Positions 26,117 to 41,364 of a stretch of DNA of 64,000 nucleotides are shown piece after piece. The first letter of the stretch is position 1. The number at the start of each line of letters is the position of its first letter. The notes under the pieces are model-generated. The model saw only the letters and a program-made list of their open reading frames with translations. It ran no database searches and was not told the origin of the DNA. The stretch comes from Leptospirales bacterium (GTDB lineage Bacteria > Spirochaetota > Leptospiria > Leptospirales > Leptonemataceae), in contig JAIBBN010000003.1 in the NCBI GenBank assembly GCA_019694655.1, positions 310,001-374,000 on the forward strand, given 5' to 3'. The position numbers and the translations under genes were made by a program.

Positions 26117-26147
26117 ACGTACTAGATATATAATATATTTAGTACGT
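26117..26147 (+). promoter_or_regulatory. 31-bp near-perfect palindrome over the methyltransferase promoter
   Basis: The outer arms are ACGTACTA (26117-26124) and TAGTACGT (26140-26147). The inner arms are ATATAT and ATATAT around the centre at 26132. Only the central base and one symmetric pair break the symmetry. A consensus -10, TATAAT (26129-26134), lies inside it, so a bound protein would block RNA polymerase. The ATG is two bases after the end. The inner 25 bp match the element at 40554-40578 in 20 positions. Confidence 0.75.
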
Positions 26148-26148
26148 T

Positions 26149-26796
26149 ATGCTCTTGAACGCGCTGCGCCCGGTCGGTCCGTTCCTGGCGGCCCAGGATT
26201 CGGAATGGTATCCGCTCTTCTTGCAATCTATCGTGGAACATATCCGCCCGGCTGGCGATGGTCTCTGGATCGACATTGGAACAGGCCCGGGCGCCCTGCC
26301 GGCCGCCCTGTGCGAGCAGCCTGGCTGGAAGATAATCGGGACGGACATTGATCCGGCGATGCTGCAGCTGGCGCGCCAGCGGGTCCGATCGCCTGACGTC
26401 CATTTCCAGCTGCAGAACGCCGATTTCTTTGCCTCGGTAGCAAATGCCAGCGTCGATCGAGTCAGTTTTTGCTCGGTGCTATTCTTGCTGAGCGAAGCGG
26501 TGCGCTGTTCTTTGCTGGACGAGGCCTTGCGGATGTTGAAGCCAGAGGGCCAGTTGCTGGTACTGACGCCCACGCCCCTGCGCGCGCCGCCGTCCGCCTT
26601 GAGCGGAATTGGACTGCGCGCCTTTGCCCGCAGCAACTGGACTTTTTTTGTCTGGCGTGCAAGCACTCGAGTCAGAGCGACGCGCTGGCATCAGGAAAAC
26701 TGGGCGCAACGCGTCGCAACCGAACGGGGATTGCATTACGCCGCAGAGGATGTCTTCAGCGGCTATGCGAGACTCGAATGCCTTAGCAAATCCTGA
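26149..26796 (+). CDS. SAM-dependent methyltransferase under palindromic operator
   Basis: 215 residues with class I methylase motifs: IDIGTGPGALPAALCEQ (motif I), IGTDIDPAMLQLAR, and LRMLKPEGQLLVLTPTP. The rest of the sequence is not diagnostic for substrate. The ATG at 26149 is only about 8 bases after the likely transcription start, with no ribosome-binding site, so the mRNA would be nearly leaderless. It is convergent with the two small membrane-protein genes. Confidence 0.83.
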   Translation: MLLNALRPVGPFLAAQDSEWYPLFLQSIVEHIRPAGDGLWIDIGTGPGALPAALCEQPGWKIIGTDIDPAMLQLARQRVRSPDVHFQLQNADFFASVANASVDRVSFCSVLFLLSEAVRCSLLDEALRMLKPEGQLLVLTPTPLRAPPSALSGIGLRAFARSNWTFFVWRASTRVRATRWHQENWAQRVATERGLHYAAEDVFSGYARLECLSKS

Positions 26797-26813
26797 TCAG
26801 CAGGCAATACCGT

Positions 26814-27185
26814 TCAAGCAATTCCAAGCAGGTAGCTTCCATAGAGCAGCACACATACGCTATCGAAGACGCCGGTCAGGACCAGGCCACGGGTCGGGCC
26901 GCGAACGTTGAGCCAGATCAACGAGGCAAAGGCTAACTTCTCGGCCATAGCCGCAAAGACGATGGGGCCGCGCACTTCGGCGTGGCCGGCGGCATAGAGC
27001 AGCAGCAAGCCGAAGGTGGTTGCCACAAGACCCCAGTGTGCCGAGAAGAAGAGTTCTGCGCTGCCGCCCACTTCAATGCGATTGAGAATTCGCAGGTAGG
27101 GCCTGGGCGCCAGAAACTGCAGCAGAGCGCTGGCCGTGATGGCGCCGGTTACGTAGAGAATGATGCTGATGTGATCGGTAATCAT
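26814..27185 (-). CDS. Four-helix membrane protein, paralogue of the neighbouring gene
   Basis: 123 residues with four hydrophobic helices. It begins DHISIILYVTGAITASALLQF and contains AHWGLVATTFGLLLLYAAG and FDSVCVLLYGSYLLG. The pattern recurs in the gene immediately upstream, so this is a tandem duplication. ATG 27185 is chosen over a longer frame because alignment with the paralogue starts there. I do not recognise a named family or function. The two are 31 bases apart and likely co-transcribed. Confidence 0.78.
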   Translation of the reverse strand: MITDHISIILYVTGAITASALLQFLAPRPYLRILNRIEVGGSAELFFSAHWGLVATTFGLLLLYAAGHAEVRGPIVFAAMAEKLAFASLIWLNVRGPTRGLVLTGVFDSVCVLLYGSYLLGIA

Positions 27186-27216
27186 TGCTGCTTTGTCTCC
27201 GTCTTTGGCGATCGGC

Positions 27217-27603
27217 CTACGACGCCGCGCCCGACGTCGCCCCCACAAGATAGATAGCGTAAAGCGCGACACAGATCGAGTCGAAGACCAGGCCGACCAT
27301 CATCTTCTTGCCGAAATCTTGAAATTTGATCAGCAGGATAATAATATAGGAGAGCTTGCTGCAGCTGATAGCCAGCATCACCGGAACACGCAGCTCAGCA
27401 TGGGCGCCGGCGTAGATCAGAAGACCGCCGCCAATGGCGACCATCAACGCCCAGTGCCGGGCGAAGATCAGGGCGGCCTCGCTGGACAATTCAATTTGAT
27501 TGAACTGCTTCAGTGCAAAGCGCGGGCTGATAAACTGCAGTAGCATGATTGCCGTTATTCCGCCCGTAACATACAGGATAATATCTATGTGTTCCGCTAC
27601 CAT
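27217..27603 (-). CDS. Four-helix membrane protein, first of a tandem pair
   Basis: 128 residues with four hydrophobic helices. It starts MVAEHIDIILYVTGGITAIMLLQF and has ARHWALMVAIGGGLLIYAGAHAELRVP and VFDSICVALYAIYLVG. It aligns end to end with the downstream gene product, sharing the DII/SIILYVTG start, HWxLM/LVA, AHAE/GHAEVR and FDSxCV. No catalytic motif is visible; the function is unknown. It lies downstream of the beta-propeller gene on the same strand (46 bases). Confidence 0.78.
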   Translation of the reverse strand: MVAEHIDIILYVTGGITAIMLLQFISPRFALKQFNQIELSSEAALIFARHWALMVAIGGGLLIYAGAHAELRVPVMLAISCSKLSYIIILLIKFQDFGKKMMVGLVFDSICVALYAIYLVGATSGAAS

Positions 27604-27649
27604 TCCGCGCTCCCATTCCTGTCCTGATCATCTACAATAATGCAATCGC

Positions 27650-28819
27650 CTACTGACCGGCGACGCCATCATGACCGGGGCGAATCCGGAACAGATGATA
27701 GGGCGCATGCGCCCTGATATGCTCCTGACTTTGCAGAGCAATATCCGGGATATCGCTGTCAGCAATATAGAGCCACCCATCCGGACCAAAGGAAAAGCCA
27801 TCTGGCCAGCGCATGGCATCGCTCGTCACCAACGTGAATAGCTTGCCATCTGCGCCAAGCACGGCGATGCCCCGGTGTTCCATATCAGTCAGATAGACAT
27901 TCCCGGCGTTGTCAATCGTAATGCCGTCGCTTTGCACCTTTGGGCCGGCCTTTTCTACGCGAGCGGCAAGCTGATCGGCGCTCAGCGCCGGATTGTTCAA
28001 ATCCGCTGTGCGAATTCGAAATAGATCCTCGTGATTCATTGGACCATAGTACAACCAATCCCCGGCTGGATGGATGGCAATGGAATCCACGCCAGCGCGC
28101 AAGGCGATCAATCCGCCAAGGCGAACCATTGGACCGTTGTAGGCGCGGATCAAATAGTTCTGTGGCTGCACGGATACGTCGTTTTCCAGAAGGCGCCGAC
28201 TTTCATTGGCGACAGTGTCGACGACAATCAAGGCCGGCGATTTGCCAAAGAAATTTACATCGGCGATGTAAACGTAGCGCCCGCTGGGATCAATGGCCAG
28301 ATCCTGGAGATAAGATAGCAGTCCCGCAACGTTCGAAGGGAAATCGTAGCGATAGACGACCTTGCGCGAGTCAATGTCCACGGCCGCCAGTCTGGCCCCA
28401 TGGATGCCATTGTCCCCGTGGTCAATGGTCCAGAGACGGTTTTTCGAATCAACGCGAATGCCCTGAGGAAAGCGATAGAGTTCCTGCTGTGCAGCCTGGT
28501 CGGGAAAGGCCTGTGGCTTCCCGTCGACAATTTCGGCGACATGCATTCCCTGCGGCTTTGCTTCCGGATGAAAAGTAATGAAGATCCGACCGCTGCGCGA
28601 GACGGCGATGTTGCCTGGCGGTTGATCAAGGCTGGCGACCAATTGCAGCGCCGAGGCCGGCAGTCTGGCGGCGGTGCTGCGATCAGGAAAATTTTCGCCG
28701 CCGCCGTAGCGCAGCCGGAGGCCCGCCGCCAGTACGCAGATCAGCGCGACCAGAATCAGCAGGATGCGCAGCCAGAGCCTTCGGGATGGTTTTCCATCGT
28801 ATTTGGATCGTTTCGACAT
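27650..28819 (-). CDS. Secreted/membrane-anchored yellow/MRJP-like beta-propeller
   Basis: 389 residues. One N-terminal membrane helix (about 15-36) precedes a beta-propeller domain of the major royal jelly protein/yellow type. Propeller blades are seen as PPGNIAVSRSGRIFITFHPE, RFPQGIRVDSKNRLWTIDHG, DLAIDPSGRYVYIADV, DSIAIHPAGDWLYYGPMN, SDGITIDNAGNVYLTDMEH and WPDGFSFGPDGWLYIADSD. Bacterial relatives are uncharacterised, probably extracytoplasmic. GGAGG precedes the ATG. A TetR-type operator (TGAATGAAnnTTCATTC) lies 21-36 bases upstream. The gene follows merR on the same strand. Confidence 0.85.
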   Translation of the reverse strand: MSKRSKYDGKPSRRLWLRILLILVALICVLAAGLRLRYGGGENFPDRSTAARLPASALQLVASLDQPPGNIAVSRSGRIFITFHPEAKPQGMHVAEIVDGKPQAFPDQAAQQELYRFPQGIRVDSKNRLWTIDHGDNGIHGARLAAVDIDSRKVVYRYDFPSNVAGLLSYLQDLAIDPSGRYVYIADVNFFGKSPALIVVDTVANESRRLLENDVSVQPQNYLIRAYNGPMVRLGGLIALRAGVDSIAIHPAGDWLYYGPMNHEDLFRIRTADLNNPALSADQLAARVEKAGPKVQSDGITIDNAGNVYLTDMEHRGIAVLGADGKLFTLVTSDAMRWPDGFSFGPDGWLYIADSDIPDIALQSQEHIRAHAPYHLFRIRPGHDGVAGQ

Positions 28820-28839
28820 TGCATCAACCTCCGCAAGAT

Positions 28840-28873
28840 GAATGAAGATTCATTCTTCACCCTTGCACTGTCA
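28840..28873 (-). promoter_or_regulatory. Promoter and TGAATGAA-type operator of the beta-propeller gene
   Basis: GAATGAA and TTCATTC (28840-28855) form a perfect 7-bp dyad with a 2-base spacer. On the minus strand a perfect -35, TTGACA (28868-28873), stands upstream so that the -10 region falls within the dyad, which fits repression. The same palindrome occurs at 30634-30655 next to a tetR gene. The -35 lies at the very end of merR. Confidence 0.68.
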
Positions 28874-29269
28874 ATCCGGAATGACAAAAAAGTCAGCGAG
28901 CAGCCGCTGGCGCCAATCGCTGCCAGGCCCCTGGCGAAAGCCGACCAGCGCTGTGGCCAGGGCATTGCGCACGCGTTGCAATGCAGCTAGCTTCTGATCC
29001 AGCTCGCATAGCTTGTCGGATAGGCCTGTCACTACGTCCTGCACGGTTTCTGCATTCTCCAGCAATTTCAGAAAGCTGTAGATCTCGCTCAATCGAAATC
29101 CCATCTGTCGGGCGTTGCGAACAAAGTGCAGTTGGCGGACGGCCTCTTCGTTGTAGCGTCGATAGTTGTTGTCCAGTCTTGGTCCGCTGTCCAGCAATCC
29201 AAGCCGCTCATAGTAGCGAATTGTCGCCGGCGATAGTCCGGTCTTCCTGGCAATTTCAGAAATCAGCAT
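28871..29269 (-). CDS. MerR-family transcriptional regulator
   Basis: 132 residues. The N-terminal winged helix has the family start MLISEIARKTGLSPATIRYYERLGLL, then RRYNEEAVRQLHFVRNARQMGFRLSEI and a long coiled coil. There are no C-terminal metal-binding Cys clusters as in MerR/CueR/ZntR; the few Cys are scattered, so a non-metal signal is likely. ATG 29269 is preferred (TTTGGAAACGAG upstream); a TTG at 29281 is the alternative. It is divergent from a small membrane-protein gene whose promoter has the 19-bp spacer typical of MerR targets. Confidence 0.9.
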   Translation of the reverse strand: MLISEIARKTGLSPATIRYYERLGLLDSGPRLDNNYRRYNEEAVRQLHFVRNARQMGFRLSEIYSFLKLLENAETVQDVVTGLSDKLCELDQKLAALQRVRNALATALVGFRQGPGSDWRQRLLADFFVIPD

Positions 29270-29300
29270 ACTCGTTTCCAAAAAAAGTCATTGGCCGATC

Positions 29301-29331
29301 TTGACCCTCAAGCGCGCTTCAATGATAAGCT
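29301..29331 (+). promoter_or_regulatory. MerR-type promoter with 19-bp spacer
   Basis: TTGACC (29301-29306) and TAAGCT (29326-29331) are separated by exactly 19 bases, longer than the usual 17 and the hallmark of promoters that MerR-family activators remodel. The spacer holds the 10-bp palindrome AAGCGCGCTT. It faces the small membrane-protein gene at 29364, and lies beside the divergent merR gene. Confidence 0.68.
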
Positions 29332-29363
29332 TTTGCCTGCTTTTTTGCAGGGAGGCAAACTTT

Positions 29364-29726
29364 ATGAAACATGCGGCCATCAGTGTGCTTGTATTTGGAT
29401 TCTATCTGGCAGGACAGGGCGCCATTTTGCTATTGGCCCCCAATCTACTGCTGGGAATTTTGGGCCTGCCGCCGACCGACGAGGCCTGGATTCGAGCGGT
29501 AGGAGTCGCGCTTCTGGTCCTCTCCTATTACTATGTGCGTACATCTCTTGCCAACAACCTGGCCTTTTTTCGTTTGAGCGTACACGGTCGAAGCATCCAG
29601 CTGCTCCTGATAGGCGGCCTTGTCCTGAGTGGAAGCGCGCCGGCAATCCTGGGCGCCTTCGCCCTATTCGAATTTCTGTCCGGCGTTTGGACCTGGCTTG
29701 CACTGCGTTCCGCGGCCGAAAGCTAA
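29364..29726 (+). CDS. Small four-helix membrane protein under a MerR-type promoter
   Basis: 120 residues with about four hydrophobic helices and few charges; it starts MKHAAISVLVFGFYLAGQGA. An RSIQLLLIGGLVLSG segment lies mid-protein. I recognise no family. AGGGAGG precedes ATG 29364. Its position behind a 19-bp-spacer promoter divergent from merR makes it the likely primary target of that regulator. Confidence 0.8.
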   Translation: MKHAAISVLVFGFYLAGQGAILLLAPNLLLGILGLPPTDEAWIRAVGVALLVLSYYYVRTSLANNLAFFRLSVHGRSIQLLLIGGLVLSGSAPAILGAFALFEFLSGVWTWLALRSAAES

Positions 29727-29779
29727 GGGCCAGCCGGCGCGCCGTCCGACCTTGCGGCCGGCGGCGCAGCAATCGGCCT

Positions 29780-30580
29780 CTACTTTGCCTTCTTTGGCTT
29801 GCTGATGTTATAGCTCATCATCGCCATCACTCGACGCGGCGTGCTGCGAACGGAAGCGGCCAGAAAGTAATTCATCAGGCCGGGAATGGTTGAAGGCGCC
29901 TTGCCCAGTTTGTTCAAGCACTGCGCTACAACATCGCGGGGCTCGGACCAGCCGCCCATGGGCTTCTGTCCGGCATTGCCCGCTACGTTTTGAAAATCGG
30001 TGCGCGTGTAGCCAGGCGAAAGCGCAATCACATCAATGCCAAAGGGGCGCAATTCCGCCCACAGCGCCTCGCCCAGCATCAAATTGAATGCTTTCGTAGC
30101 GCCGTAGGTTGCAAAGAAAGGGCAGGGTTGATAGGCGCCGTTGGAAGAAAGAAAGACAATACCGCCCTTCTTGCGGGCGACCATATCGTTTACAAACAGG
30201 TGCGTCAACTCTACCGGCAGGCTGCAATTCAGCGCCACCATATTGGCCTCTTTACTGCCTTCTATTTCATGGAAGAGACCGTAGGTTCCGTAGCCTGCAT
30301 TGTTTACCAGCAGACCAACTTTCAGACCCATGGATTGCACCTGTGATTGAACCTTCTCTGCCGCTCCTGGCGCGCTGAGATCGGCGGCGATGATGCGCAC
30401 ATCGACGCCGGCCTCGCTCTGCAGCTGCTGGGCCAGCGCCGAGAGCCTGTCCTCTCGTCTGGCGACCAGGATCAAATCCATTCTGCGCGCTGCCAGCTGC
30501 CGCGCAAATTCCTCGCCCAGGCCTCCCGAAGCGCCGGTAATCAGCGCCGCTCCGCCAAATCGTTCCTTCCAGTTTTGCAT
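29780..30580 (-). CDS. Short-chain dehydrogenase/reductase
   Basis: 266 residues. SDR motifs: TGASGGLG, ARREDR after the second strand (suggests NADPH), NNAGYG, LSSNGA and YGATKAF (Tyr/Lys). The length and the GATKAFNLMLGEALWAEL segment resemble the DltE/YqjQ-like SDR branch. It is divergent from the tetR gene; their shared gap holds a 10-bp-arm operator, which strongly suggests repression by that TetR. Confidence 0.9.
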   Translation of the reverse strand: MQNWKERFGGAALITGASGGLGEEFARQLAARRMDLILVARREDRLSALAQQLQSEAGVDVRIIAADLSAPGAAEKVQSQVQSMGLKVGLLVNNAGYGTYGLFHEIEGSKEANMVALNCSLPVELTHLFVNDMVARKKGGIVFLSSNGAYQPCPFFATYGATKAFNLMLGEALWAELRPFGIDVIALSPGYTRTDFQNVAGNAGQKPMGGWSEPRDVVAQCLNKLGKAPSTIPGLMNYFLAASVRSTPRRVMAMMSYNISKPKKAK

Positions 30581-30633
30581 TGCTTGCTACCTCCTGGCCC
30601 CGCCCGGCGCACTACTGGCCGGCGATGGGCGCG

Positions 30634-30655
30634 TGTGAATGAACTTTCATTCACA
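30634..30655. promoter_or_regulatory. TetR-type operator between the dehydrogenase and tetR genes
   Basis: The arms TGTGAATGAA and TTCATTCACA form a perfect 10-bp dyad with a 2-base spacer (CT). It lies 54 bases upstream of the dehydrogenase start and 154 bases upstream of tetR. It is the best palindrome in the window for a TetR dimer. Confidence 0.78.
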
Positions 30656-30808
30656 ATGAGATCGCCGTCAAGCTCAAATCGGCCGCGCTGCTCTGGATCT
30701 GGATCGCTGGAATTGGCCTTGACGTCCGAAGAAACGGCGGCCAGGCTTCGACCGCGCCGACTGCAAGGGGGCATTGAGCGACGCTCTTTTCGCGTTCGGA
30801 AGTATCTT

Positions 30809-31396
30809 ATGAGCGTGCGACAGGCGACAAAGGCGGATAGCGGCAAGCGCCGGCAGATCCTGGCGGCCGCGCTGCAGCTCTTTTCTGCAAAGGGTTATGA
30901 AGCTACGCCGGTTCCGGAGATAGCCGCCGAATGCAAGATTGCCGTGGGCGGCCTCTATCGCTACTTCAAGAGCAAAGAAGATCTGGCCAACTGCCTCTTC
31001 CAGGAGGTTAAGACAAACTACAGCGCAATCCTTTCCGATGGATTTGACCGCATCGAAGATACGCGTGAGAAATTCTTACATCTCTGGAAAGCAATGGTGC
31101 GTTTTTCAGAGCAGCGGCCGCAGGAATTTATCTTTCTTGAGTTTCACAATCATTCTACCTATCTCAACAAGAAGAGTCGCGACCTCGACGCTCGGGCCAT
31201 GCGCGACATTGAGCAGTTCATTCGCCGCGCACAGCGCCGGGGAGAATTGAAAAAGATGGAGCCGGCGCTGACCGTGGCCATCGTCGTCGGGATCTTCCTG
31301 GCCTACTTCAAAACGCGAACCGAAGGCCAGCTGGCCCATCCCGAGACGGCGCTCAAACAGGCCGAGGCTGCTGCGTGGCGCGCGGTGGGCGTATGA
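30809..31396 (+). CDS. TetR-family transcriptional regulator
   Basis: 195 residues. The N-terminal HTH is textbook TetR: RRQILAAALQLFSAKGYEATPVPEIAAECKIAVGGLYRYFKSKEDL. The ligand domain is helical and shows HNHSTYLNKKSRDLD, without a recognised ligand class. ATG 30809 is chosen; the same frame runs back over 150 codons but without homology. It is divergent from a dehydrogenase, with the TGTGAATGAA operator between them, so it likely represses itself and that gene, and perhaps the beta-propeller gene at 27650. Confidence 0.92.
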   Translation: MSVRQATKADSGKRRQILAAALQLFSAKGYEATPVPEIAAECKIAVGGLYRYFKSKEDLANCLFQEVKTNYSAILSDGFDRIEDTREKFLHLWKAMVRFSEQRPQEFIFLEFHNHSTYLNKKSRDLDARAMRDIEQFIRRAQRRGELKKMEPALTVAIVVGIFLAYFKTRTEGQLAHPETALKQAEAAAWRAVGV

Positions 31397-31477
31397 GGTC
31401 CGCTCCCAGCGGAGCGCTGCCGTCGCTCCGGCATGAAAAGCTGTTGAAGGCCTGAGCAGCGCCGCCCAAGCATGACG

Positions 31478-31500
31478 CCCGCGGTCTTCGTTACCGCGGG
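31478..31500 (+). promoter_or_regulatory. GC hairpin upstream of the acylase gene
   Basis: CCCGCGGT and ACCGCGGG form a perfect 8-bp stem with a 7-base loop, 18 bases before the ATG of the acylase gene and about 80 bases after the tetR stop. There is no T run after it. It may end tetR transcription or shield the leader; no more can be said. Confidence 0.42.
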
Positions 31501-31517
31501 ACGAGGGGCAGTCGGAC

Positions 31518-33680
31518 ATGAAGCTGAAAGGCGACAAAATCGAAATTCACCGGGACGAGAACGGCATTCCGCACATTCGCGCGTTGACTATTGCCGATGC
31601 CTGCTTTGCGCAAGGCTATGTTCATGCCACCGATCGCGGCATGCAAATGCTGTTGATGCGCATCCTGGGCCAGGGACGCGCTGCCGAGCTGCTTGACGGC
31701 AGCGATAAAATGGTCGATATCGACCGCTTTTTTCGCAAGATGAACTGGGCCGCCGTCGGCAGCAACCAGACACAATCGCTCACCGACTTTTCACGAGAGT
31801 GCCTGCAGGCTTACGCCGCCGGCGTCAACGAGGGCTTTGGCGGCAAGGTCCCGTGGGAATTTCGTTTGTTGAAGGCGCCCTTCGAGGCCTGGCGCATGGA
31901 GGACAGCTTTCTTATTTCCAGGATGATTGGGTACTTAACGCTTTCCCAGTCGCAGGGCGAAGTTGAGCGGCTGCTGATTGAGATGATTCAGGCCGGGGTG
32001 GCCGGCGATTTGCTGGAGGAACTTTTTCCGGGACTGCTCTCCGGACTCGATCGTGAACTAGTCCAGTCGGTGAAGCTGGACCATCACATTGTGCCATCCA
32101 GTTTGCTCTGGGAGCTGGGCGCCCCGCGCTTTATGGCCTCCAACAACTGGGTGCTGTCCGGTCGCAAGACGGCCAGCGGCCACGCGCTGCTTTGCAACGA
32201 TCCGCATCTTGAGATCAACCGCATCCCGAACGTCTGGCAGGAGATAGTGATGGAGGTTGGCGACAACTATCTGATGGGCGGTTGTATGCCGGGGGCCCCC
32301 GGCGTCCTTTCCGGCCGCAACCGCGAGCTGTCCTGGGGCGTAACTTATTCCTTTATGGATGGCGAGGACTCGTGGATCGAACGTTGCAAGGATGGCCGCT
32401 ATTATCGCGAGGGAGAAGGCTGGAAAGATTTTCAGGTGCGCAAAGAAACGATCAAGCGCAAAGGCCAGACCGCCGCGGAAGTCATCTACTACCAGAACGA
32501 GCATGGCGTCCTTGCGGGCGATCCGCGCCATGAGGGGCTCTATCTGGCAAGTCGCTGGGCGTGCGGCGAATCAGGGGCGCGCACGCTGACCCGTATTCTG
32601 GAAATGTGGAACGTGAAGAGCGTCGAGGAGGGCATGCGCACCCTTGGTCAGGTGGAAACGGCGTGGAATTTTGTGTTTGCTGACCGTCAGGGCGCCATCG
32701 GCTACCAGATGTCCGGTCTGATGCCATTGCGTCGCGACGGCATTAGCGGACTGGTTCCCTTGCCGGGATGGCTTCCTGAAAATGACTGGCAGGGATTTGC
32801 CGCGGTCGAAGACCTGCCGCGCTCTTTGAATCCGGAGCAGGGTTTCTTTGTAACCACAAACAACGATCTCAATCGCTGGGGCAAGCGCAAGCCGCTGAAC
32901 ATGCCCATGGGGCCTTACCGCGCCGAACGCGTCGAAAGCGTTTTGCACCAGCGCAACGACTTCACGCGCAAGGACATGATCGATCTGCACTACGATGTAT
33001 ACTCGACGCAGGCTGAACAATTCATGAAAATCATCCGGCCGTTGCTGCCGGATCAGGGGCAGGGCAAGGTCCTGCAAGACTGGGATATGAAGTACGATCC
33101 AGCCTCAAAGGGCGCCTCGCTTTTCGAGCGCGTCTATCGCGCGCTGTATCGCGAGGTATTCGGCAAAAAGGGCGTAGGCGCTCAGGTCGAAGGCTATCTC
33201 TACAGCGAAACTGGCATGTACATCGATTTCTACATCAACTTTGATCGAATTCTTCTATCGCAGAGCTCGCGCTGGTTTGGCGGCGAATCGCGCGAGGCAA
33301 TCTATCGCCGGGCAATCGCCGAAGCGCTCTCCAGCGCCGCCCCCGCCTGGGGTTCGTTGCAGAAGATCAAGCTCTCGCACATTCTGTTTGGCGGAAAATT
33401 TCCGTCTTTTCTGGGTTTCGATCGCGGGCCGATCACGCTGATTGGCGGTCGCGCAACGCCGCATCAGGGGCAGATCTATCGCAGCGCTGGCCGACTCACC
33501 ACCTTTGCGCCGTCCTTCCGGACGATTATCGAAATGCAAAGCGATGTCTGCCATACCAATCTGATTGGCGGCGCCACCGATCGGCGCTTCTCGAAGTGGT
33601 ATTGCTCCGACCTCCAGAACTGGCTGCAGGGGCGCTACAAGGAGCTGATGCCTGGCAAGGCCTCCGGGGACTTCCCCTGA
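31518..33680 (+). CDS. Penicillin acylase-family N-terminal nucleophile hydrolase
   Basis: 720 residues. It begins at the alpha-chain pattern DENGIPHIRALTIADACFAQGYVHATDR, followed by a linker. The autoproteolytic site is at S208 in ASNNWVLSGRKTASG, then CNDPHLEINRIPNVW of the beta chain; the oxyanion Asn follows later in NFVFADRQGAIGY. The precursor would cleave itself to expose S208. Family members hydrolyse amides such as penicillins and acyl-homoserine lactones. Unlike most, it shows no signal peptide, so it seems cytoplasmic. GAGGGG lies before the ATG. The last 46 bases overlap the convergent methyltransferase gene. Confidence 0.9.
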   Translation: MKLKGDKIEIHRDENGIPHIRALTIADACFAQGYVHATDRGMQMLLMRILGQGRAAELLDGSDKMVDIDRFFRKMNWAAVGSNQTQSLTDFSRECLQAYAAGVNEGFGGKVPWEFRLLKAPFEAWRMEDSFLISRMIGYLTLSQSQGEVERLLIEMIQAGVAGDLLEELFPGLLSGLDRELVQSVKLDHHIVPSSLLWELGAPRFMASNNWVLSGRKTASGHALLCNDPHLEINRIPNVWQEIVMEVGDNYLMGGCMPGAPGVLSGRNRELSWGVTYSFMDGEDSWIERCKDGRYYREGEGWKDFQVRKETIKRKGQTAAEVIYYQNEHGVLAGDPRHEGLYLASRWACGESGARTLTRILEMWNVKSVEEGMRTLGQVETAWNFVFADRQGAIGYQMSGLMPLRRDGISGLVPLPGWLPENDWQGFAAVEDLPRSLNPEQGFFVTTNNDLNRWGKRKPLNMPMGPYRAERVESVLHQRNDFTRKDMIDLHYDVYSTQAEQFMKIIRPLLPDQGQGKVLQDWDMKYDPASKGASLFERVYRALYREVFGKKGVGAQVEGYLYSETGMYIDFYINFDRILLSQSSRWFGGESREAIYRRAIAEALSSAAPAWGSLQKIKLSHILFGGKFPSFLGFDRGPITLIGGRATPHQGQIYRSAGRLTTFAPSFRTIIEMQSDVCHTNLIGGATDRRFSKWYCSDLQNWLQGRYKELMPGKASGDFP

Positions 33681-34378
33681 GCGGCAGCTCCGGGGCGGCC
33701 GTCGGCTGACTGAGTTTTCTTGGTACAGATGTATCGTTTTACGCAGCCGCCGGCCCCAATTTCTTCTGCGCTCCACGCCAATCCCGACTCATCAAGCAGT
33801 GCGTCTATATCTTGCAGCCGGTCGCCGATCCAGGCCGTCAATCGCGCCAGAAAGTAGCCAAACCAGTTGCGATCATCTGGATAGTCGATAGCCACCATCA
33901 GCAACTTGCCGCCCGGTTGCAGCACGCGCACCATCTCTGCCAGCGCCTTTTTTCCGTCTGGGTAACCGGTCAGCGCCATAGTGCTGATCACCGTATCAAA
34001 ACTCTCATCTGCATAAGCCAGGCATTCCACATTGCCGCGCCGCAGATCAGCGGCGATTCGCAGGCGCTTCATTCGCCTCACGGCGATGGCCAGCATGCGT
34101 TCATTGTAGTCGATGCCGTGCACTTCGTAGCGCCCATCGCGCGCATAGCAGCCCATCAAATAGCCAGGCCCAAAAGAAATCTCAAGAATGCGTCGGCCTG
34201 CAATGAATGGAATTACGGAACGTATCCAGCGCCGCCACATCGGAAAGAGCCAGGAGATTCCGTTGTAAAAGGGCGCGAGCCAGTTGTAGATGCAATTCAT
34301 ACGCTCGGTGTAGCGACGATCATCGGTCGCCGGCGCGCTGTAGCGCAGCCAGGATGCAGGCGCAGAAAAGAGGCCCAT
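33635..34378 (-). CDS. SAM-dependent methyltransferase
   Basis: 247 residues. It has a hydrophobic/aromatic N-terminal region (IYNWLAPFYNGISWLFP), then the methylase core: ILEISFGPGYL (motif I), VHGIDYNERMLAIA, FDTVISTMALTGYPDG and VRVLQPGGKLLMVAID. The pattern resembles UbiE/phospholipid N-methyltransferase-like enzymes. The last 15 codons overlap the end of the acylase gene in the opposite direction. It is followed, 62 bases upstream on the same strand, by the LytTR gene's end. Confidence 0.83.
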   Translation of the reverse strand: MGLFSAPASWLRYSAPATDDRRYTERMNCIYNWLAPFYNGISWLFPMWRRWIRSVIPFIAGRRILEISFGPGYLMGCYARDGRYEVHGIDYNERMLAIAVRRMKRLRIAADLRRGNVECLAYADESFDTVISTMALTGYPDGKKALAEMVRVLQPGGKLLMVAIDYPDDRNWFGYFLARLTAWIGDRLQDIDALLDESGLAWSAEEIGAGGCVKRYICTKKTQSADGRPGAAAQGKSPEALPGISSL

Positions 34379-34440
34379 GATCGAACTGTTTTGTCGTCAG
34401 GAGACCCGTCAATTAGATGCCTGTCAACGTCAGCGACGCG

Positions 34441-35325
34441 CTAGTCTGACTGATTCGGCGGCAGAGCGCCGGCGCCATTCGCCGCTCGCAGCGCTTGCCG
34501 CAGCGAAGCAACATAGGCTCGCCCTACTGGAAGGATCGTATCATCGCTGTCCGCAAGGACCGCCTGTAAGCCGCCGCCTGGCGCGCGTTGCAGCTGGCGC
34601 AGGAGGTCCAGACGAATGGCATAGCGCTTGTGAATCCGCAAAAAGGAAGCGCCCGGCGCAGCCAGCACCCGCTTCAGGACCATTGCAATTTCAAAATCGC
34701 GATCTTCGGCGTGGACTACGGTGTGTGTACGATGGGCGCTCAAGTAGTGTACGCTGCGCACCGGAATAGCGTGCTGGACGCCATCAGCGCGAAGCAGCAG
34801 CAATTGGGGCGGCGCGCCGGCGTCCGGCGCGGTTCGCTCCGCGCCGTCTGCGGCCCGGGCGATTCCAGTTCTCTGCATGTTCCCGGCCAGGAGATAGGAT
34901 GCGCTGCAGACGATCAGCGTCAGAATCAGCGATCCGGGCAGCTGTCCTGACACCAGGCTGAGCACGGCCGGATCGCTGTCATAACGCAACAGTGCAAGTG
35001 TAAACCATTTGGAAATTTGGTCGCCGAGCAGCGTGGCCAGCAGGGCGCTGCCAAGAGTCAGTGCAAAGCGGAGCGACCCGGAAAGCCTGGCGGTCCGGAA
35101 GTAGACGTAAAAGCCGGCGCCAGCAGCCAGCGTCGTAATCCAGCCTACGGAGATCAGGATCGGCGCAAATAGCGCGGCGCCTTCCGTTTGCAAAGAAGTT
35201 GGCGACGATATCCGGCCAAGCAGTAGCGTCAGCGCTGCGCTGAAAATGAGAATAAAAGCGGCGTGGGCCAGAATCAACAACCTTGCGCTGCGTCGTTGGT
35301 TAGCGGTTTCAGGTCGTTGGTTCAT
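34441..35325 (-). CDS. LytTR-type regulator with membrane N-terminus
   Basis: 294 residues from ATG 35325. Four hydrophobic helices (about 15-150) are followed by a C-terminal LytTR DNA-binding domain: PVRSVHYLSAHRTHTVVHAEDRDFEIAMVLKRVL, then FLRIHKRYAIRLDLLRQLQ and VLPVGRAYVASLRQAL. Membrane-LytTR proteins sense envelope or hydrophobic signals without a phosphorelay. A long upstream extension of the frame overlaps the amidase gene and is rejected. It is divergent from the amidase gene (75 bases). Confidence 0.86.
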   Translation of the reverse strand: MNQRPETANQRRSARLLILAHAAFILIFSAALTLLLGRISSPTSLQTEGAALFAPILISVGWITTLAAGAGFYVYFRTARLSGSLRFALTLGSALLATLLGDQISKWFTLALLRYDSDPAVLSLVSGQLPGSLILTLIVCSASYLLAGNMQRTGIARAADGAERTAPDAGAPPQLLLLRADGVQHAIPVRSVHYLSAHRTHTVVHAEDRDFEIAMVLKRVLAAPGASFLRIHKRYAIRLDLLRQLQRAPGGGLQAVLADSDDTILPVGRAYVASLRQALRAANGAGALPPNQSD

Positions 35326-35400
35326 GGCCGCCTTGACGGACTGGCCTGGTTCTGACAGACTACAAAGCGCAGCCGGCGCACGGCTGCAGGGGCGAACGCG

Positions 35401-37140
35401 ATGCATGGTAAAAAACCGGTCCGACTGATTCTGATATTCTTTGCCGCCCTGGCTCTGGTTGATCGCGGCCTTGCCACGCCGGAGCGCAGCGGCGCAGCCG
35501 AAACCGCCGCCCTGCTGGCGCCGGCCAGTTCGTCCGAAGAACTCTGCTTGCTTTCGGCGGCCGAGCTGGCTCGGCAGATCCGCGGCGGTTCTCTGAAATC
35601 CGAGACCCTCGTGCAGGCCTTCCAGCAGCGCATCCAGCGAATCAATCAGAAGTACAATGCCATTGTCACGCTGAATCCCGATGCGCTGCGGCGCGCCCGC
35701 GAGCTGGACCAAATGCAGGATCGCGGACAGATCCTGGGGCCGCTGCACGGGGTTCCCGTAGTCGTCAAGGACAGCTATTCGACGCGAGGGCTGCGCACAA
35801 CTGCCGGCTATGCGCCGCTCCGCGACTTTGTTCCCGAGGAGGATGCCGTCGCTGTGCAACTACTGCTTGAGGCCGGCGCCGTCATTCTGGGCAAGGGCAA
35901 CCTCCCGCCTCTGGCGTCTGATATGCAAACCGACAACGAGATCTTTGGTCGCACCAACAATGCCTGGGATTTGAATCGCACAGCCGGCGGCAGCACCGGC
36001 GGCGACGCGGTAGCAGTGGCGACCGGCATGGCGGCCCTTGGCTTTGGCAGCGATATTGCAGGGTCCCTGCGCGTTCCCACCGCTTTCAATGGCGTCTACG
36101 GGATGAAGCCAAGCTGGGGCGTGATCTCTTTTCAAGGCCACATCCCGCCTGTTCCAGGCGAGGTCGACGGCGTACACGATCTTGCCGTTCTTGGACCGGT
36201 TGCTCGCAACGCCGAGGATCTGGAACTGGCCTTCAGCGTACTGGCCCGCGGCCACCGCGGCGATCGTTCCGTCATTCCGCTGCCGGCCCTGACGCCACAA
36301 AGTCGTCATGGCTTGCAATTGCAGCGACTGCGCATCGCCTGGGCCGAGACGCCTGGCGGCGTTCCAGTGCAAGCGGATATTCGCAAGGCGATGCGCGCGT
36401 TTGTCGATCGCCTGGGCGCCAGCGGGGCCACAGTGACTGCGGCGGCGCCGCTTGATTTCGACTACCAGGAAGCGTGGCATGTCTGGGGCGGGATTGTCGG
36501 CCACCAGGGCGGTTACGATCGATCCAATCTGGCGCGCTGGTTTGGCGATCTCTTCACGCGCTCAGCACGGGCGCCAAATCCGATGCAGGCTGAAATTGTG
36601 GCGCCGATCTCTGTTCCGCGCTACATGGAATTACTCAATCGACAGCGCCGTTTGATTACCGCGATGGAAAACTTTCTAGAACCTTATGATGTTTACCTGA
36701 CGCCTGTCTCCTCCACCACGGCCTTTGCCCATCAGACGCCAGATGGATCGTACGGCGTTTTCAGAGTGTATGACCGCGCGCTTGATGTCGATGGACAGGC
36801 AGTTGCCTACTATGTGGCCACGCAATCACAGGCGACGATTTTTACTGTAACCGAAAATCCCGTGGTTTCCATGCCCATTGGCCGGGATCGGCAGGGTTTG
36901 CCCATTGGCATTCAAGTCGTAGGCAAACGCTATCGCGACTACGAGCTGCTGGCAATTGTTCGGCAGCTGGAAAGCGTCGCGACGGCCATGCAAGGCAACG
37001 CGGAACCTCGATCAAATGAGCGGCGCCAGCCCGCGCACGAGCATTCGATTCATCTCCTCCGGCGGCCGCTCCCCCTTGTAGAAATAGGGATGCAGCAGTC
37101 CGAGGTGAAGCAATACGCCGCCAATGGATCCGGGCAATAG
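35401..37140 (+). CDS. Secreted amidase-signature-family hydrolase
   Basis: 579 residues with an N-terminal signal sequence (LILIFFAALALV). The amidase signature is complete: Lys K123 (VVVKDSYS), S198 in GGSTGGDAVAV, and nucleophile S222 in GSDIAGSLRVP, with the spacing of the Ser-cisSer-Lys triad. The enzyme hydrolyses an unknown amide outside the cytoplasm. The C-terminal 45 codons overlap the convergent 37012 gene, so the end of the protein is probably unconserved tail. It is divergent from the LytTR gene, which may control it. Confidence 0.9.
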   Translation: MHGKKPVRLILIFFAALALVDRGLATPERSGAAETAALLAPASSSEELCLLSAAELARQIRGGSLKSETLVQAFQQRIQRINQKYNAIVTLNPDALRRARELDQMQDRGQILGPLHGVPVVVKDSYSTRGLRTTAGYAPLRDFVPEEDAVAVQLLLEAGAVILGKGNLPPLASDMQTDNEIFGRTNNAWDLNRTAGGSTGGDAVAVATGMAALGFGSDIAGSLRVPTAFNGVYGMKPSWGVISFQGHIPPVPGEVDGVHDLAVLGPVARNAEDLELAFSVLARGHRGDRSVIPLPALTPQSRHGLQLQRLRIAWAETPGGVPVQADIRKAMRAFVDRLGASGATVTAAAPLDFDYQEAWHVWGGIVGHQGGYDRSNLARWFGDLFTRSARAPNPMQAEIVAPISVPRYMELLNRQRRLITAMENFLEPYDVYLTPVSSTTAFAHQTPDGSYGVFRVYDRALDVDGQAVAYYVATQSQATIFTVTENPVVSMPIGRDRQGLPIGIQVVGKRYRDYELLAIVRQLESVATAMQGNAEPRSNERRQPAHEHSIHLLRRPLPLVEIGMQQSEVKQYAANGSGQ

Positions 37141-37668
37141 AAACCAGGCGACGCCAGCAGCGTATTCAGCAAATACCGCCGCCTCCTGGCCTGCAGCCAG
37201 CGACCACGCTGACAGCGGGCGCGCTGCCAGGGTCAGGGTCAGTCCGCTCAGGTGCAGGCCGGCAAGCCAGACATGCAGACTGTATTCAAATGTGGACAAT
37301 CCGCCAAATCCGCGACGCGCTCGGCGCTCTTCCCAGAGGTCCCAGCCCTGAAGAAAAAGATCCAGCGCCGCAAGCAGCGCGGCGATCCATAACAGCAGGC
37401 CAACAGCCGGCGCGGCCAGCAGCAAATAGATGATCAGCGGGAATAGGACGCCGCGCAGCATATGCAGAACATGTTCGCGTCGCGTTTCGCTGTAGGCGAA
37501 CAGGCGATAGCGCCACAGGTGCAGATAGACGCCATCAAAAGATGCGGCCAGTCCAAAGCTCAGAAAAAAGACGGCCGCAAGGTTCTGCACCTGATTGCTC
37601 ATAAGCCTGCTTTGCGTCGGCTGCAGCCCGACGCCAACCACCTTTGCCCTGCCGCCGCTGCCGTTCAT
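37012..37668 (-). CDS. Polytopic membrane protein of unknown function
   Basis: About 218 residues from ATG 37668 (GGAGCGAGGATC upstream); an ATG at 37602 is the alternative, and a longer frame to 37770 is unlikely. It has about five hydrophobic helices and few catalytic-looking residues, and ends YFYKGERPPEEMNRMLVRGL. I recognise no family. Its last 129 bases overlap the amidase gene in the opposite direction, so at least one of the two tails must be loosely constrained. Confidence 0.7.
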   Translation of the reverse strand: MNGSGGRAKVVGVGLQPTQSRLMSNQVQNLAAVFFLSFGLAASFDGVYLHLWRYRLFAYSETRREHVLHMLRGVLFPLIIYLLLAAPAVGLLLWIAALLAALDLFLQGWDLWEERRARRGFGGLSTFEYSLHVWLAGLHLSGLTLTLAARPLSAWSLAAGQEAAVFAEYAAGVAWFLLPGSIGGVLLHLGLLHPYFYKGERPPEEMNRMLVRGLAPLI

Positions 37669-37744
37669 CGCGGATCCTCGCTCCGGGGATTCCACAAAAT
37701 AGATGAAAAGGTTGAAAGGCGGAGCCTGGCAGCGAGAGTGCGCC

Positions 37745-38305
37745 ATGGCGGGTATTTTCGATACCTTCACGCTCGGCGGTTTATTCCTGGCGTGCGCCGC
37801 CCTGGGCGGCGGTCTATTTCTGGTAAGGATTCTTCTTCAACTTCTGGGCGCTGACGGCGTTCACGATCTTTCGCCTGAAATCGATGCCGGGGAAACCGAC
37901 GCCAGTTTTCAGTTTCTTTCGCTGCAGGGTATCGCTTCGTTTTTGATGATGTTTGGCCTGGTTGGCCTGGCAATGGATCGCAGCGGCGGATTGCCGGGCG
38001 CCGTCAGCGTGCTGGCCGCAACCGCAGCGGGCTTCGCTTCCGTTTGGATCGTTGGCCGCATTTACATTGCAATGCGCGGACTGCAGTCCAGCGGAAATGT
38101 GGATATCGAATCGGCGGTGGGGGCCGAAGGGACAATCTACCTTACCGTGCCGGCCAACGGACGCGGCAAGATCCAGCTGGTGGTCAGCGGCCGGCTTCGC
38201 GAATACGATGCAATTTCGCAGGCCGGCGTGGAACTCCCTACGGGTCGGCGCGTGCGTGTGGCGGCCGCTGTAGAAGGCAACGTACTGTCCGTAGTTGCTT
38301 TGTAG
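37745..38305 (+). CDS. NfeD-like membrane protein, flotillin partner
   Basis: 186 residues with two or three membrane helices (about 8-32, 65-82, 90-115) and a C-terminal OB-fold domain: GAEGTIYLTVPANGRGKIQLVV and LPTGRRVRVAAAVEGNVLSVV. This is the short NfeD/YuaF form that sits with flotillin in one operon. It should stabilise membrane microdomains together with the flotillin encoded 71 bases downstream. Confidence 0.85.
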   Translation: MAGIFDTFTLGGLFLACAALGGGLFLVRILLQLLGADGVHDLSPEIDAGETDASFQFLSLQGIASFLMMFGLVGLAMDRSGGLPGAVSVLAATAAGFASVWIVGRIYIAMRGLQSSGNVDIESAVGAEGTIYLTVPANGRGKIQLVVSGRLREYDAISQAGVELPTGRRVRVAAAVEGNVLSVVAL

Positions 38306-38376
38306 CAGCGCAACAATGATTTCAAATAATCGCCGCCTATTTTCAAAATAAGTCTGCACTTAGAGGATAGAAACAG

Positions 38377-39927
38377 ATGGGTGAGTCGGTGATCTGGGCG
38401 CTAACAATTCTGGCCTTTGTTGGGCTGCTTGCTTCAAGCATGATGATCCTTGCGGCCCGCTACAAGCGCTGTCCCTCGGATATGATACTGGTGGTCTACG
38501 GGCGCGTTGGCAAGGGCCAGTCGGCGCGCTGCATCCATGGCGGCGGCGCTTTCATCCTGCCCTTGATCCAGGGATTCGATTTTCTACGACTCACGCCGCA
38601 TACGATCAACATCCCGCTGCAAAACGCGCTCTCCCTGCAAAACATTCGGATCAATGTACCCAGCACCTTTACGGTGGGCGTCAGCACCGATCCGGCCATC
38701 ATGAACAACGCCGCGGAGCGTCTGCTGGGGCTTCGGGCCGAGCTGATCGAAGATATGGCGCGCGAGATTATTTTTGGGCAGCTGCGTCTTACGGTCGCCT
38801 CCCTGACCATTGAACAGATCAATCAAGATCGCGAGAGTTTCCTTGCTTCAATTCGAAAAAATGTGGAACCGGAACTGAATAAGATCGGTTTGTACCTCAT
38901 TAACGTCAATATTACAGACATTACGGATTCCTCGAACTACATCGAGAGCATCGGCAAGAAGGCTGCTTCCGAGGCCATCAATCAAGCCAAGATCGATGTG
39001 GCTGAGCAGGACAAGATTGGCGAAATTGGACAGGCCGAAGCAGTGCGCGAAAGGGAGATCAAAGTCGCTGAGAATCTGGCGGCCGCGGAAAAGGGCAAGA
39101 AGGCGGCGGAAGCGGATCAGCGCGTCTTTGTGCAGCAACAAGAGTCTACTGCCTCCATTGGCGAATCAGAGGCCTATCGTGACAAAGAGATCAGGGTGGC
39201 CGAAAACCAGGCGGACGCCGAGAAGGGGAAGAAACGAGCCGACGCCGACCGCCGCGTCTACGTACAGGCCCAGGAGGCGGAGGCCATTTCCGGTGAAAAC
39301 CGTTCCAAGGCCAGCATTGCCAATGCCAACGCTGAATTGCGCGTTAAGGAGGCCGAGGCGCGTCAGCTGGGCGAGGTAGCCAGGTTTCAGGCCGATGTTG
39401 TCATCCAGAAGGCTCAGGCGCTTGCCGAAACGGAGCGATTGAATGCCGCTGAGGTGGTGCGCGTCGAAATTCAAAAACGAAAAATTGAAATCGCCGCCGA
39501 AGCAAATGCCGAAAGATCGCGGCGCGAAGCGCGCGGTGCAGCAGACGCAACCTTGCTGAAGTACCAGGCGGAGGCTGAGGGCATGCGCCTGTTGCTGCAA
39601 TCCAAGGCGGAAGGATACCGTCAGCTGGTAGCAGGAGCAGGAGGCGATGCTCGCGCCGCCGCTACGCTCTTGTTGCTCGAGAAGCTGGAGCAGATTGTCA
39701 GCTCGCAAATCGAAGCGATCAAGAATTTGAAAATAGATAAGATTACAGTTTGGGACTCGGGGACCTCCGGAGATGGATCGTCTACTGCAAATTTCCTGTC
39801 CGGGCTGATCAAGAGCCTGCCGCCGCTGCATGAGATCGCGGCAATGGCCGGCATCGACCTTCCGCAATTTCTTGGACAGATTGCACAACGCGGGCAGGAA
39901 GGCCAGGAGCAGACCAGCAAAGACTGA
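38377..39927 (+). CDS. Flotillin/SPFH-family membrane scaffold protein
   Basis: 516 residues. One N-terminal membrane helix (about 5-27), an SPFH/Band 7 domain (about 30-200, with CIHGGGAFILPLIQ), a long Ala/Glu-rich coiled coil (about 205-440) with the EA repeats of flotillins, and a hydrophobic C-terminal region. Inside the coiled coil a block of about 43 residues occurs twice in tandem: one copy has EREIKVAENLAAAEKGKKAA, the other DKEIRVAENQADAEKGKKRA. AGAGGA precedes ATG. It forms an operon with the NfeD-like gene. Confidence 0.94.
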   Translation: MGESVIWALTILAFVGLLASSMMILAARYKRCPSDMILVVYGRVGKGQSARCIHGGGAFILPLIQGFDFLRLTPHTINIPLQNALSLQNIRINVPSTFTVGVSTDPAIMNNAAERLLGLRAELIEDMAREIIFGQLRLTVASLTIEQINQDRESFLASIRKNVEPELNKIGLYLINVNITDITDSSNYIESIGKKAASEAINQAKIDVAEQDKIGEIGQAEAVREREIKVAENLAAAEKGKKAAEADQRVFVQQQESTASIGESEAYRDKEIRVAENQADAEKGKKRADADRRVYVQAQEAEAISGENRSKASIANANAELRVKEAEARQLGEVARFQADVVIQKAQALAETERLNAAEVVRVEIQKRKIEIAAEANAERSRREARGAADATLLKYQAEAEGMRLLLQSKAEGYRQLVAGAGGDARAAATLLLLEKLEQIVSSQIEAIKNLKIDKITVWDSGTSGDGSSTANFLSGLIKSLPPLHEIAAMAGIDLPQFLGQIAQRGQEGQEQTSKD

Positions 39928-39983
39928 AGCGACAACCTGGAAGAAGCGCGCGGCCGGCCCGTCCTGCGCTTGCTCCATAAAGC

Positions 39984-40002
39984 CAGTATAGAGTATATAC
40001 TG
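39984..40002 (+). promoter_or_regulatory. Palindrome upstream of the rrf2 gene
   Basis: The arms CAGTATA and TATACTG form a perfect 7-bp dyad with a 5-base spacer. The core TATAGAGTATAT resembles TATAGTGTATAT in the element at 40553-40579. It lies 54 bases before the rrf2 start and covers likely -10 sequences, as expected for autoregulation. Confidence 0.62.
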
Positions 40003-40056
40003 CAGGCTGCTGGAAAGGGCCTTGCGCCGATGCCAGGGGCGGCCCTGGCTGGGCCT

Positions 40057-40506
40057 ATGAGCTATTCGCTGGCCTATTCCCAGGCGATCCTGGCGCTGAT
40101 CTTTGTACACGATAAGCAAAATTTGAAGGGCTACGAGTTTGTTTCGGCCCGCGATCTATCGCAGACCCTGAACATTCCAGCCCCTTCCGTTGCTCGAATC
40201 CTGCGACTGCTCACACAAAGCCGAATTCTGGAAACGCGCGAAGGGTACGGCGGCGGCGTGCGCATTGCCCGAAGTGCGGAAGAGATCAGCCTGCTGGACA
40301 TTTTTCAATCCATCGAGCAGGGTAAGCCGCTCTTTCGCACCAACCTCCGCATCAACGTAAAGGACAGCCGTCCGCAAAGACTGCTGGCAAGGATCAGCGC
40401 CGCGCTGCAGGCGACCGAATCAGAGATGCAGGCCAGCCTGCGCAAGGTTACGCTCCGGCAGCTGCTGGGTCCCGGCGGCGCTTCCAGAAAGTCGTCGCGG
40501 AGCTGA
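40057..40506 (+). CDS. Rrf2-family transcriptional regulator without Fe-S cysteines
   Basis: 149 residues from ATG 40057, where the typical Rrf2 start MSYSLAYSQAILALIFV begins; ATG 40030 is an alternative. The winged helix has SARDLSQTLNIPAPSVARILRLL and the wing YGGGVRIARSAEEISLLDIFQSIEQG. The three conserved Cys of IscR/NsrR are absent, so it should not carry an iron-sulfur cluster and may sense another signal, as CymR or SaiR do. Related palindromes before this gene and before the next suggest that it represses both. Confidence 0.88.
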   Translation: MSYSLAYSQAILALIFVHDKQNLKGYEFVSARDLSQTLNIPAPSVARILRLLTQSRILETREGYGGGVRIARSAEEISLLDIFQSIEQGKPLFRTNLRINVKDSRPQRLLARISAALQATESEMQASLRKVTLRQLLGPGGASRKSSRS

Positions 40507-40552
40507 AACTAAATTGGCCGGCCGCCTACAGAAATGGCTTGCCTGAATCAAT

Positions 40553-40579
40553 CTACTGGATATAGTGTATATGTAGTAG
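40553..40579 (+). promoter_or_regulatory. AT-rich palindrome over the promoter of the outer-membrane-like gene
   Basis: The outer arms CTACT (40553-40557) and AGTAG (40575-40579) and inner arms ATATA and TATAT (around TATAGTGTATAT) form one symmetric element. A promoter can be read through it: -35 TTGCCT (about 40539), a 16-base spacer, -10 TATAGT (about 40561). A repressor bound here would block the promoter. The inner 25 bp match the 26117-26147 element at 20 positions. Confidence 0.73.
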
Positions 40580-40590
40580 AGGTGATTAAC

Positions 40591-41364
40591 ATGAATCGAT
40601 TCTGGAAGATCGGACGACTGGCAGCTGCCGCCGGCTTGCTCTGGAGCGGCGCGCTGGGCGCAGAAGACAGGGATCAGCAATTGCCGCTGGCCATCGAGAT
40701 TGATCCGGCAACCTACGCCTTGAACGGCTATGCCCTTCATCTGCGCTTTGATCCGGAGATATTGGGCCCCTGGGTCGCGGGCTTTGGGGCTTATGGCCTG
40801 GATTTTCCGAAGGCGCTGGTCAATAGCAATCCGCAGAACCGCGATCAGGGGTGGAACCTGCGATTGCATTCAGGCGCCGGGCTATTCCTGGAGCGTTACT
40901 TCAGTCCGGAAAAGGATGGCTGGTTCCTGGGGTTACAGCTTTCGCGGCAGAACTACCGGCTTGAGAATTCCGACCGCTATCGAAGAGAACTGGAACTGCA
41001 GAGTCTCGCTCAGGCGACGGTTGCGGGCTATGACAATCGACTGTACCTATGGCAGCTGTACCGGCGCGGCGAACAGGATCTCTTGCTGCTTCATGCGCTT
41101 TTTCCAGCACAGCCAGGCAGTTTGCCGATCGCTGAGCTGCTCTACATTCGCTCGAATCGAAGACGCGTATTTTCCAATGGTCTGGCCATGATCTACGGGG
41201 GCTATCGAATCTATCCAGGCAAGCAGCGAAATATCTATCTTCAGTTTTGGGGGGGCGTCGGCTATACCGAAACCGTAGCGGGAACGACAAGTCTACGCGG
41301 CAAATCATATGATGTAGCGCCGACCGTCCCCTTTGCCACGGTGCACATCGGCTATCATTTCTAG
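40591..41364 (+). CDS. Probable outer-membrane beta-barrel protein
   Basis: 257 residues. A signal peptide (about 1-25, LAAAAGLLWSGALGA) is followed by alternating polar/aromatic strands (LHSGAGLFLERYF, WFLGLQLSRQNY, AMIYGGYRIYPG, NIYLQFWGGVGYTETVAG) and ends TVHIGYHF, a C-terminal Phe as in outer-membrane barrels. I recognise no named family. GAGGTG precedes ATG 40591. It is directly behind an AT-rich palindrome and downstream of the rrf2 gene. Confidence 0.8.
   Translation: MNRFWKIGRLAAAAGLLWSGALGAEDRDQQLPLAIEIDPATYALNGYALHLRFDPEILGPWVAGFGAYGLDFPKALVNSNPQNRDQGWNLRLHSGAGLFLERYFSPEKDGWFLGLQLSRQNYRLENSDRYRRELELQSLAQATVAGYDNRLYLWQLYRRGEQDLLLLHALFPAQPGSLPIAELLYIRSNRRRVFSNGLAMIYGGYRIYPGKQRNIYLQFWGGVGYTETVAGTTSLRGKSYDVAPTVPFATVHIGYHF

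Follow-up and report, generated by a model that had tools for sequence, protein, structure and literature searches.

In the Rrf2 family of regulators, CymR senses through a partner enzyme, and Fe-S cysteines serve this purpose in other members. RsrR of Streptomyces venezuelae carries a [2Fe-2S] cluster and has more than 100 sites, with sites at its own divergent promoter (PMC5015018; PDB 6hsd, 6y42). The 11-3-11 inverted repeat known from RsrR is the geometry characteristic of full-length (class 1) Rrf2 sites (PMC5015018). SifR is a monothiol quinone sensor that needs a conserved cysteine, and the SifR/HypR-type operator is the 19-bp TGTAA-N9-TTACA (PMC9218516). Our literature searches returned nothing relevant on cysteine-free Rrf2 regulators and nothing on an Rrf2 regulon in this bacterial group.

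We analyzed a stretch of 64,000 nt (the window) from a Leptospirales bacterium of the Leptonemataceae (GCA_019694655.1, contig JAIBBN010000003.1, positions 310,001-374,000, forward strand). Three palindromes in the window appear to be operators of a cysteine-free Rrf2 repressor, whose regulon would be small and local and include negative feedback. We put the probability of this reading at roughly 0.84.

Two similar palindromes ahead of a methyltransferase gene and a putative barrel gene

The two strong candidate sites and the genes that follow them are located in the window as follows:

26117-26147, no strand: candidate operator site 1, a 31-bp palindrome with a 25-bp 11-3-11 core at 26120-26144
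26149-26796, + strand: gene for a class I SAM-dependent methyltransferase, 215 aa (Pfam Methyltransf_25, E=1.9e-14)
40539-40566, + strand: promoter-like TTGCCT-16-TATAGT, with the -10 inside site 2
40553-40579, no strand: candidate operator site 2, a 27-bp palindrome with a 25-bp 11-3-11 core at 40554-40578
40591-41364, + strand: putative outer-membrane beta-barrel gene, 257 aa, with a signal peptide-like start and a C-terminal Phe
41455-42381, + strand: alpha/beta hydrolase gene with a lipoprotein-like start (Pfam Abhydrolase_1, E=5.7e-20), downstream of the barrel gene

Site 1 (ACGTACTAGATATATAATATATTTAGTACGT) has 14 complementary pairs out of 15 and, at a score of 13, ranks first among the loop-free palindromes of the window. 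The same score was also reached in 2 of 30 shuffles, so that the symmetry of site 1 is by itself marginal. Site 2 (CTACTGGATATAGTGTATATGTAGTAG) is an imperfect palindrome, with 10 complementary pairs out of 13. A preliminary description of this DNA had called both elements almost fully symmetric, which is accurate for site 1 and generous for site 2. Symmetry alone is weak evidence; more telling is how alike the sites are. Between the inner 25-mers of site 1 and site 2, 20 of 25 positions are identical, exactly as had been described. In 300 dinucleotide-shuffled versions of the window, the closest sequence to the 25-mer of site 1 reached 17/25. The likeness of the two sites is therefore beyond chance.

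The full candidate operator pattern, TACTNGATATA-NNN-TATATNTAGTA, is an 11-3-11 inverted repeat of 25 bp with 18 scored positions. A genome scan had been proposed in the preliminary description; we ran one with TACTNGATATANNNTATATNTAGTA, allowing at most three mismatches and taking the reversed pattern as control. In the whole 3.9-Mb genome, only sites 1 and 2 were found within three mismatches of the full pattern, and the control gave 0 matches. The 12-bp core TATA-NNN-TATAT (TATANNNTATAT) was present at four places genome-wide, namely sites 1 and 2, a weaker site 3 ahead of rrf2, and one coding match in the last part of a lytic transglycosylase-like gene, which we judged to be chance. Within the window, TATANNNTATA was found at sites 1, 2, and 3 only (shuffle mean 0.025).

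These results bear on two explanations that involve no regulator. The first is that AT-rich -10 regions are symmetric and similar by coincidence. The shuffles that equalled the symmetry score of site 1 would agree with this, but it is already contradicted by the 20/25 match, by the near-uniqueness of the pattern in the genome, and by its recurrence at the rrf2 loci of two other genomes (see below), and we regard it as very improbable. The second is that the elements serve in recombination or belong to mobile elements, as terminal repeats or dif-like sites would, a role for which a long, near-perfect inverted repeat like site 1 would be suited. However, both strong sites are promoter sites, separated from the start codons by 1 and 11 nt, we saw no gene for a transposase or integrase adjoining them, and orthologous loci keep a similar placement relative to promoters. 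We find an origin of this kind scarcely credible.

The sequence TATAAT is located at 26129-26134, within the site 1 palindrome, and the promoter scan found no -35 at this site. The overlap with a likely -10 that had been claimed for both elements was borne out in full at site 2, where the -10 belongs to a promoter-like pair, and at site 1 for the hexamer only. The ATG of the methyltransferase gene (26149) is 1 nt beyond site 1, with an in-frame stop just 5' of it. Because the start codon follows one base after the palindrome, the methyltransferase is probably read from a leaderless, or almost leaderless, mRNA. No relatives of the methyltransferase were found in the genomes of the family at E<=1e-10.

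Site 2 ends 11 nt ahead of the start codon of the barrel gene. The outer-membrane assignment is putative, with a signal-like start, a beta-rich pattern, and the C-terminal Phe as its sole basis. The protein matched no Pfam family, no relatives were found in the genomes of the family, and AF2 without an alignment gave a poor fold (pLDDT 33). The hydrolase gene is possibly co-transcribed with the barrel gene.

A weaker candidate site at the rrf2 promoter

Two further features precede site 2:

39984-40002, no strand: candidate operator site 3, weaker, a 19-bp palindrome with core TATAGAGTATAT at 39987-39998
40057-40506, + strand: rrf2 (ATG 40057), encoding an Rrf2-family regulator of 149 aa, the predicted binder of the sites

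The gene directly upstream of rrf2 (38377-39927) encodes a flotillin-like SPFH protein (Band_7).

Site 3 (CAGTATAGAGTATATACTG) is a palindrome with one broken pair and has the TATAG-N-GTATAT core in common with site 2. The outer half-sites ACT/AGT (TACT/AGTA) are missing from it, and 12 of the 18 pattern positions match. With an overlapping register, 39971-39995, the number of matching positions rises to 14 of 18. A -35-like TTGCTC is located just upstream. The position ahead of rrf2 and the similar core are as first described; as an operator the site is weak, and its register is ambiguous.

Both the missing half-sites and the ambiguous register would also be expected if sites 1 and 2 were Rrf2 operators and site 3 were merely the AT-rich promoter of rrf2, with no autoregulation there. 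This explanation has to contend with the fact that three of the four genomic places with the 12-bp core are sites 1-3, and that 39971-39995 is the sole other place in the window with at most four mismatches to the full pattern (shuffle mean 0.025). In addition, the corresponding site was found in the gap before rrf2 in one other genome, and in another ahead of the gene that comes before rrf2. We therefore consider a site 3 without operator function rather unlikely. Judged by its sequence, site 3 is probably a weaker operator at the rrf2 promoter, ambiguous in register, at which Rrf2 would likely repress its own gene.

The Rrf2 protein contains no cysteine

The protein encoded at 40057-40506 contains the Rrf2 domain PF02082, with 73.3 bits against a curated cut-off of 30. 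Its AF2 model (mean pLDDT 85.7; helix 104-130) has the winged HTH and the long C-terminal dimerisation helix of the family. A Foldseek search with the model gave RsrR as the best match, followed by CymR/IscR, with NsrR also among the top structural matches. Its relatives in the PDB by sequence are RsrR and YwnA.

The regulator had been described as lacking the Fe-S cysteines, and we found that it contains no cysteine whatever, as does its orthologue in genome G019. It thus lacks the cluster-ligating cysteines of the Fe-S regulators IscR, NsrR, RsrR, and RirA. It also differs from the monothiol regulators SifR and YwnA, both in having no cysteine and in that the sites differ from TGTAA-N9-TTACA. 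Because the protein has no cysteine, neither thiol chemistry nor a cysteine-ligated Fe-S cluster can be the signal. Our guess is that the inducing signal is a small ligand or cofactor.

Another regulator might use the sites, the adjoining rrf2 being coincidental. Two TetR-type genes appear in the window by eye, TetR operators are likewise palindromic, and three further Rrf2 proteins are encoded in the genome. Yet the 11-3-11 geometry fits Rrf2, and none of the three other Rrf2 genes has a TATANNNTATAT in its vicinity (1.5 kb). For the TetR-like gene at about 30.8 kb, there is a separate palindrome of unlike sequence, TGTGAATGAACTTTCATTCACA, at 30634. The site also recurs by an rrf2 homologue in G019 and in G102, with no TetR gene in the stretches read. 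Control by another regulator is accordingly improbable in our view. The TGTGAATGAACTTTCATTCACA palindrome (30634-30655) lies between an SDR gene (29780-30580, - strand) and the TetR-like gene (ATG 30810, + strand), and is likely the TetR operator of this divergent pair.

Sites at rrf2 loci of other genomes

We searched for rrf2 and the operator pattern in related genomes. The gene is rare in the order: an rrf2 orthologue was found in one of the 29 other genomes, G019, a MAG named 'Leptospiraceae bacterium' from another genus, with 62% identity. Two more distant Rrf2 homologues were found among 393 genomes of the phylum. A search of contigs with the Rrf2 sequence alone gave no matches. The same search with an Rrf2 alignment gave one close orthologue, at the G019 locus, and distant homologues from Firmicutes and Bacteroidetes, which had about 31% identity or less or were short partial matches, and which lacked the motif and had unlike sequences.

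In G019, AACAGGATATACTTCATATGCAGTA is located in the gap between rrf2 and the divergent next gene, which is cut by the contig end. This site has three mismatches to the full pattern. With a looser pattern, it is the only match without mismatches in G019, but the looser pattern had been adjusted with this site already in view. By position alone, the chance of such a placement was estimated at ~1e-4 (3 matches in 3.7 Mb, 130-bp gap). A -35-like TTGACC is located just upstream of the palindrome. A weak match in G019 upstream of a secreted-protein gene (C123) was at control level and was rejected.

In G102, from another spirochaete family, the Rrf2 homologue has E=7e-36, and AACTATATATATTATATATATAGTT is the only site with at most two mismatches in 3.6 Mb. 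The gene ahead of rrf2, which lies on the same strand as rrf2, follows the site at a distance of 22 nt (chance by position ~1e-4), and the site is partly a (TA)n run. A -35-like TTGACT is found just upstream of the palindrome. The preceding gene is plausibly cotranscribed with rrf2, the two being separated by a 105-bp gap. No further orthologues were found in the class of G102.

In G214, whose Rrf2 homologue has 38% identity, the full pattern was not found, and a different palindrome, AATCAATTATATATCTATTTGATT, precedes rrf2; we did not count this genome as support. In this genome (L086:5001-10465), the rrf2 homologue is downstream of genes for an MMPL transporter, a LolA-like protein, and a porin-like protein, all on the same strand. 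In the region of the reading helix, the proteins of the window (PAPSVARILR) and G019 (PGPSVARIFR) are nearly alike, and that of G102 (PFPTVVKVLK) differs. The presence of sites near rrf2 in the closer homologues and their absence in the distant ones are as expected of an operator that changes with the reading helix.

Among members of the order without rrf2, G004, G005, G009, G016, and G018 had 0 pattern matches and 0 control matches; several of the rrf2-less members with zero matches are GC-rich. In the remaining rrf2-less members, the pattern matches were about at control level, with no clear excess. The comparison of genomes with and without rrf2 that had been suggested as a check thus came out in favor of the link, with sites at the rrf2 loci of G019 and G102 and numbers near control where rrf2 is absent. 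A palindrome on contig C10 of genome G000 was not counted, as it belongs to a BrnT/BrnA-like pair. In this toxin-antitoxin pair (L088:2155-2830), CGTATATATCCTGTATATACAG is located just upstream and resembles an autoregulatory site.

Proposed regulon

We propose that an Rrf2 homodimer would bind the 25-bp 11-3-11 inverted repeat TACTNGATATA-NNN-TATATNTAGTA over the -10 region. At the two strong sites, the bound dimer would block RNA polymerase at the methyltransferase gene and the barrel gene, perhaps together with the hydrolase gene. Rrf2 would also occupy the weaker site at its own promoter, which would result in negative feedback. At sites 2 and 3 and at the G019 and G102 sites, a -35-like hexamer is located just upstream and a -10-like hexamer within the palindrome. 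This arrangement points to repression rather than activation.

The preliminary description had Rrf2 repressing three promoters, one of them 14 kb away. The assignment to Rrf2, a prediction, finds good support in the conservation of the sites, the lack of cysteine, and the 11-3-11 geometry. Physical binding of the sites by Rrf2 and autoregulation of rrf2 are parts of the same prediction, and the strength given to site 3 was not upheld.

The very small regulon proposed here is new and the regulator family is known; what we describe is a tidy candidate regulon with no new mechanism. It provides a precise, testable candidate operator for a cysteine-free branch of Rrf2. With a strong regulon of apparently just two promoters, the joint role of the methyltransferase and the barrel, as well as a cysteine-independent signal, come within reach of experiments. 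The cysteine-free sensor is the most interesting point of the regulon. As a tentative suggestion, which we hold to be possible and somewhat doubtful, the protein may represent a cysteine-free spirochaete subgroup of Rrf2 with an undescribed sensing mode that uses neither an Fe-S cluster nor a thiol, and whose two-operator regulon would couple the SAM-dependent methyltransferase and the barrel in an envelope or lipid-modification response.

Comparison with known systems

Among solved structures, RsrR is the best match of the window protein both by Foldseek and by sequence, and the two systems have in common the 11-3-11 geometry, present here at candidate sites 1 and 2, and the location of a site, here the weaker candidate site 3, at the promoter of the regulator gene. 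The window protein differs from RsrR in having no cysteine, an AT-rich operator, and only two strong sites found. YwnA (PDB 1xd7) is a near solved relative, and the YwnA/SifR type is, like the predicted window system, a small homodimeric Rrf2 protein that acts at promoter sites of near-palindromic sequence; the conserved cysteine and the TGTAA-N9-TTACA operator of that type are both absent here. With IscR, NsrR, and CymR, the window protein shares the fold, the operator size, and the winged HTH with the long dimerisation helix, whereas their sensing features are absent or not seen in it and the operator sequence differs.
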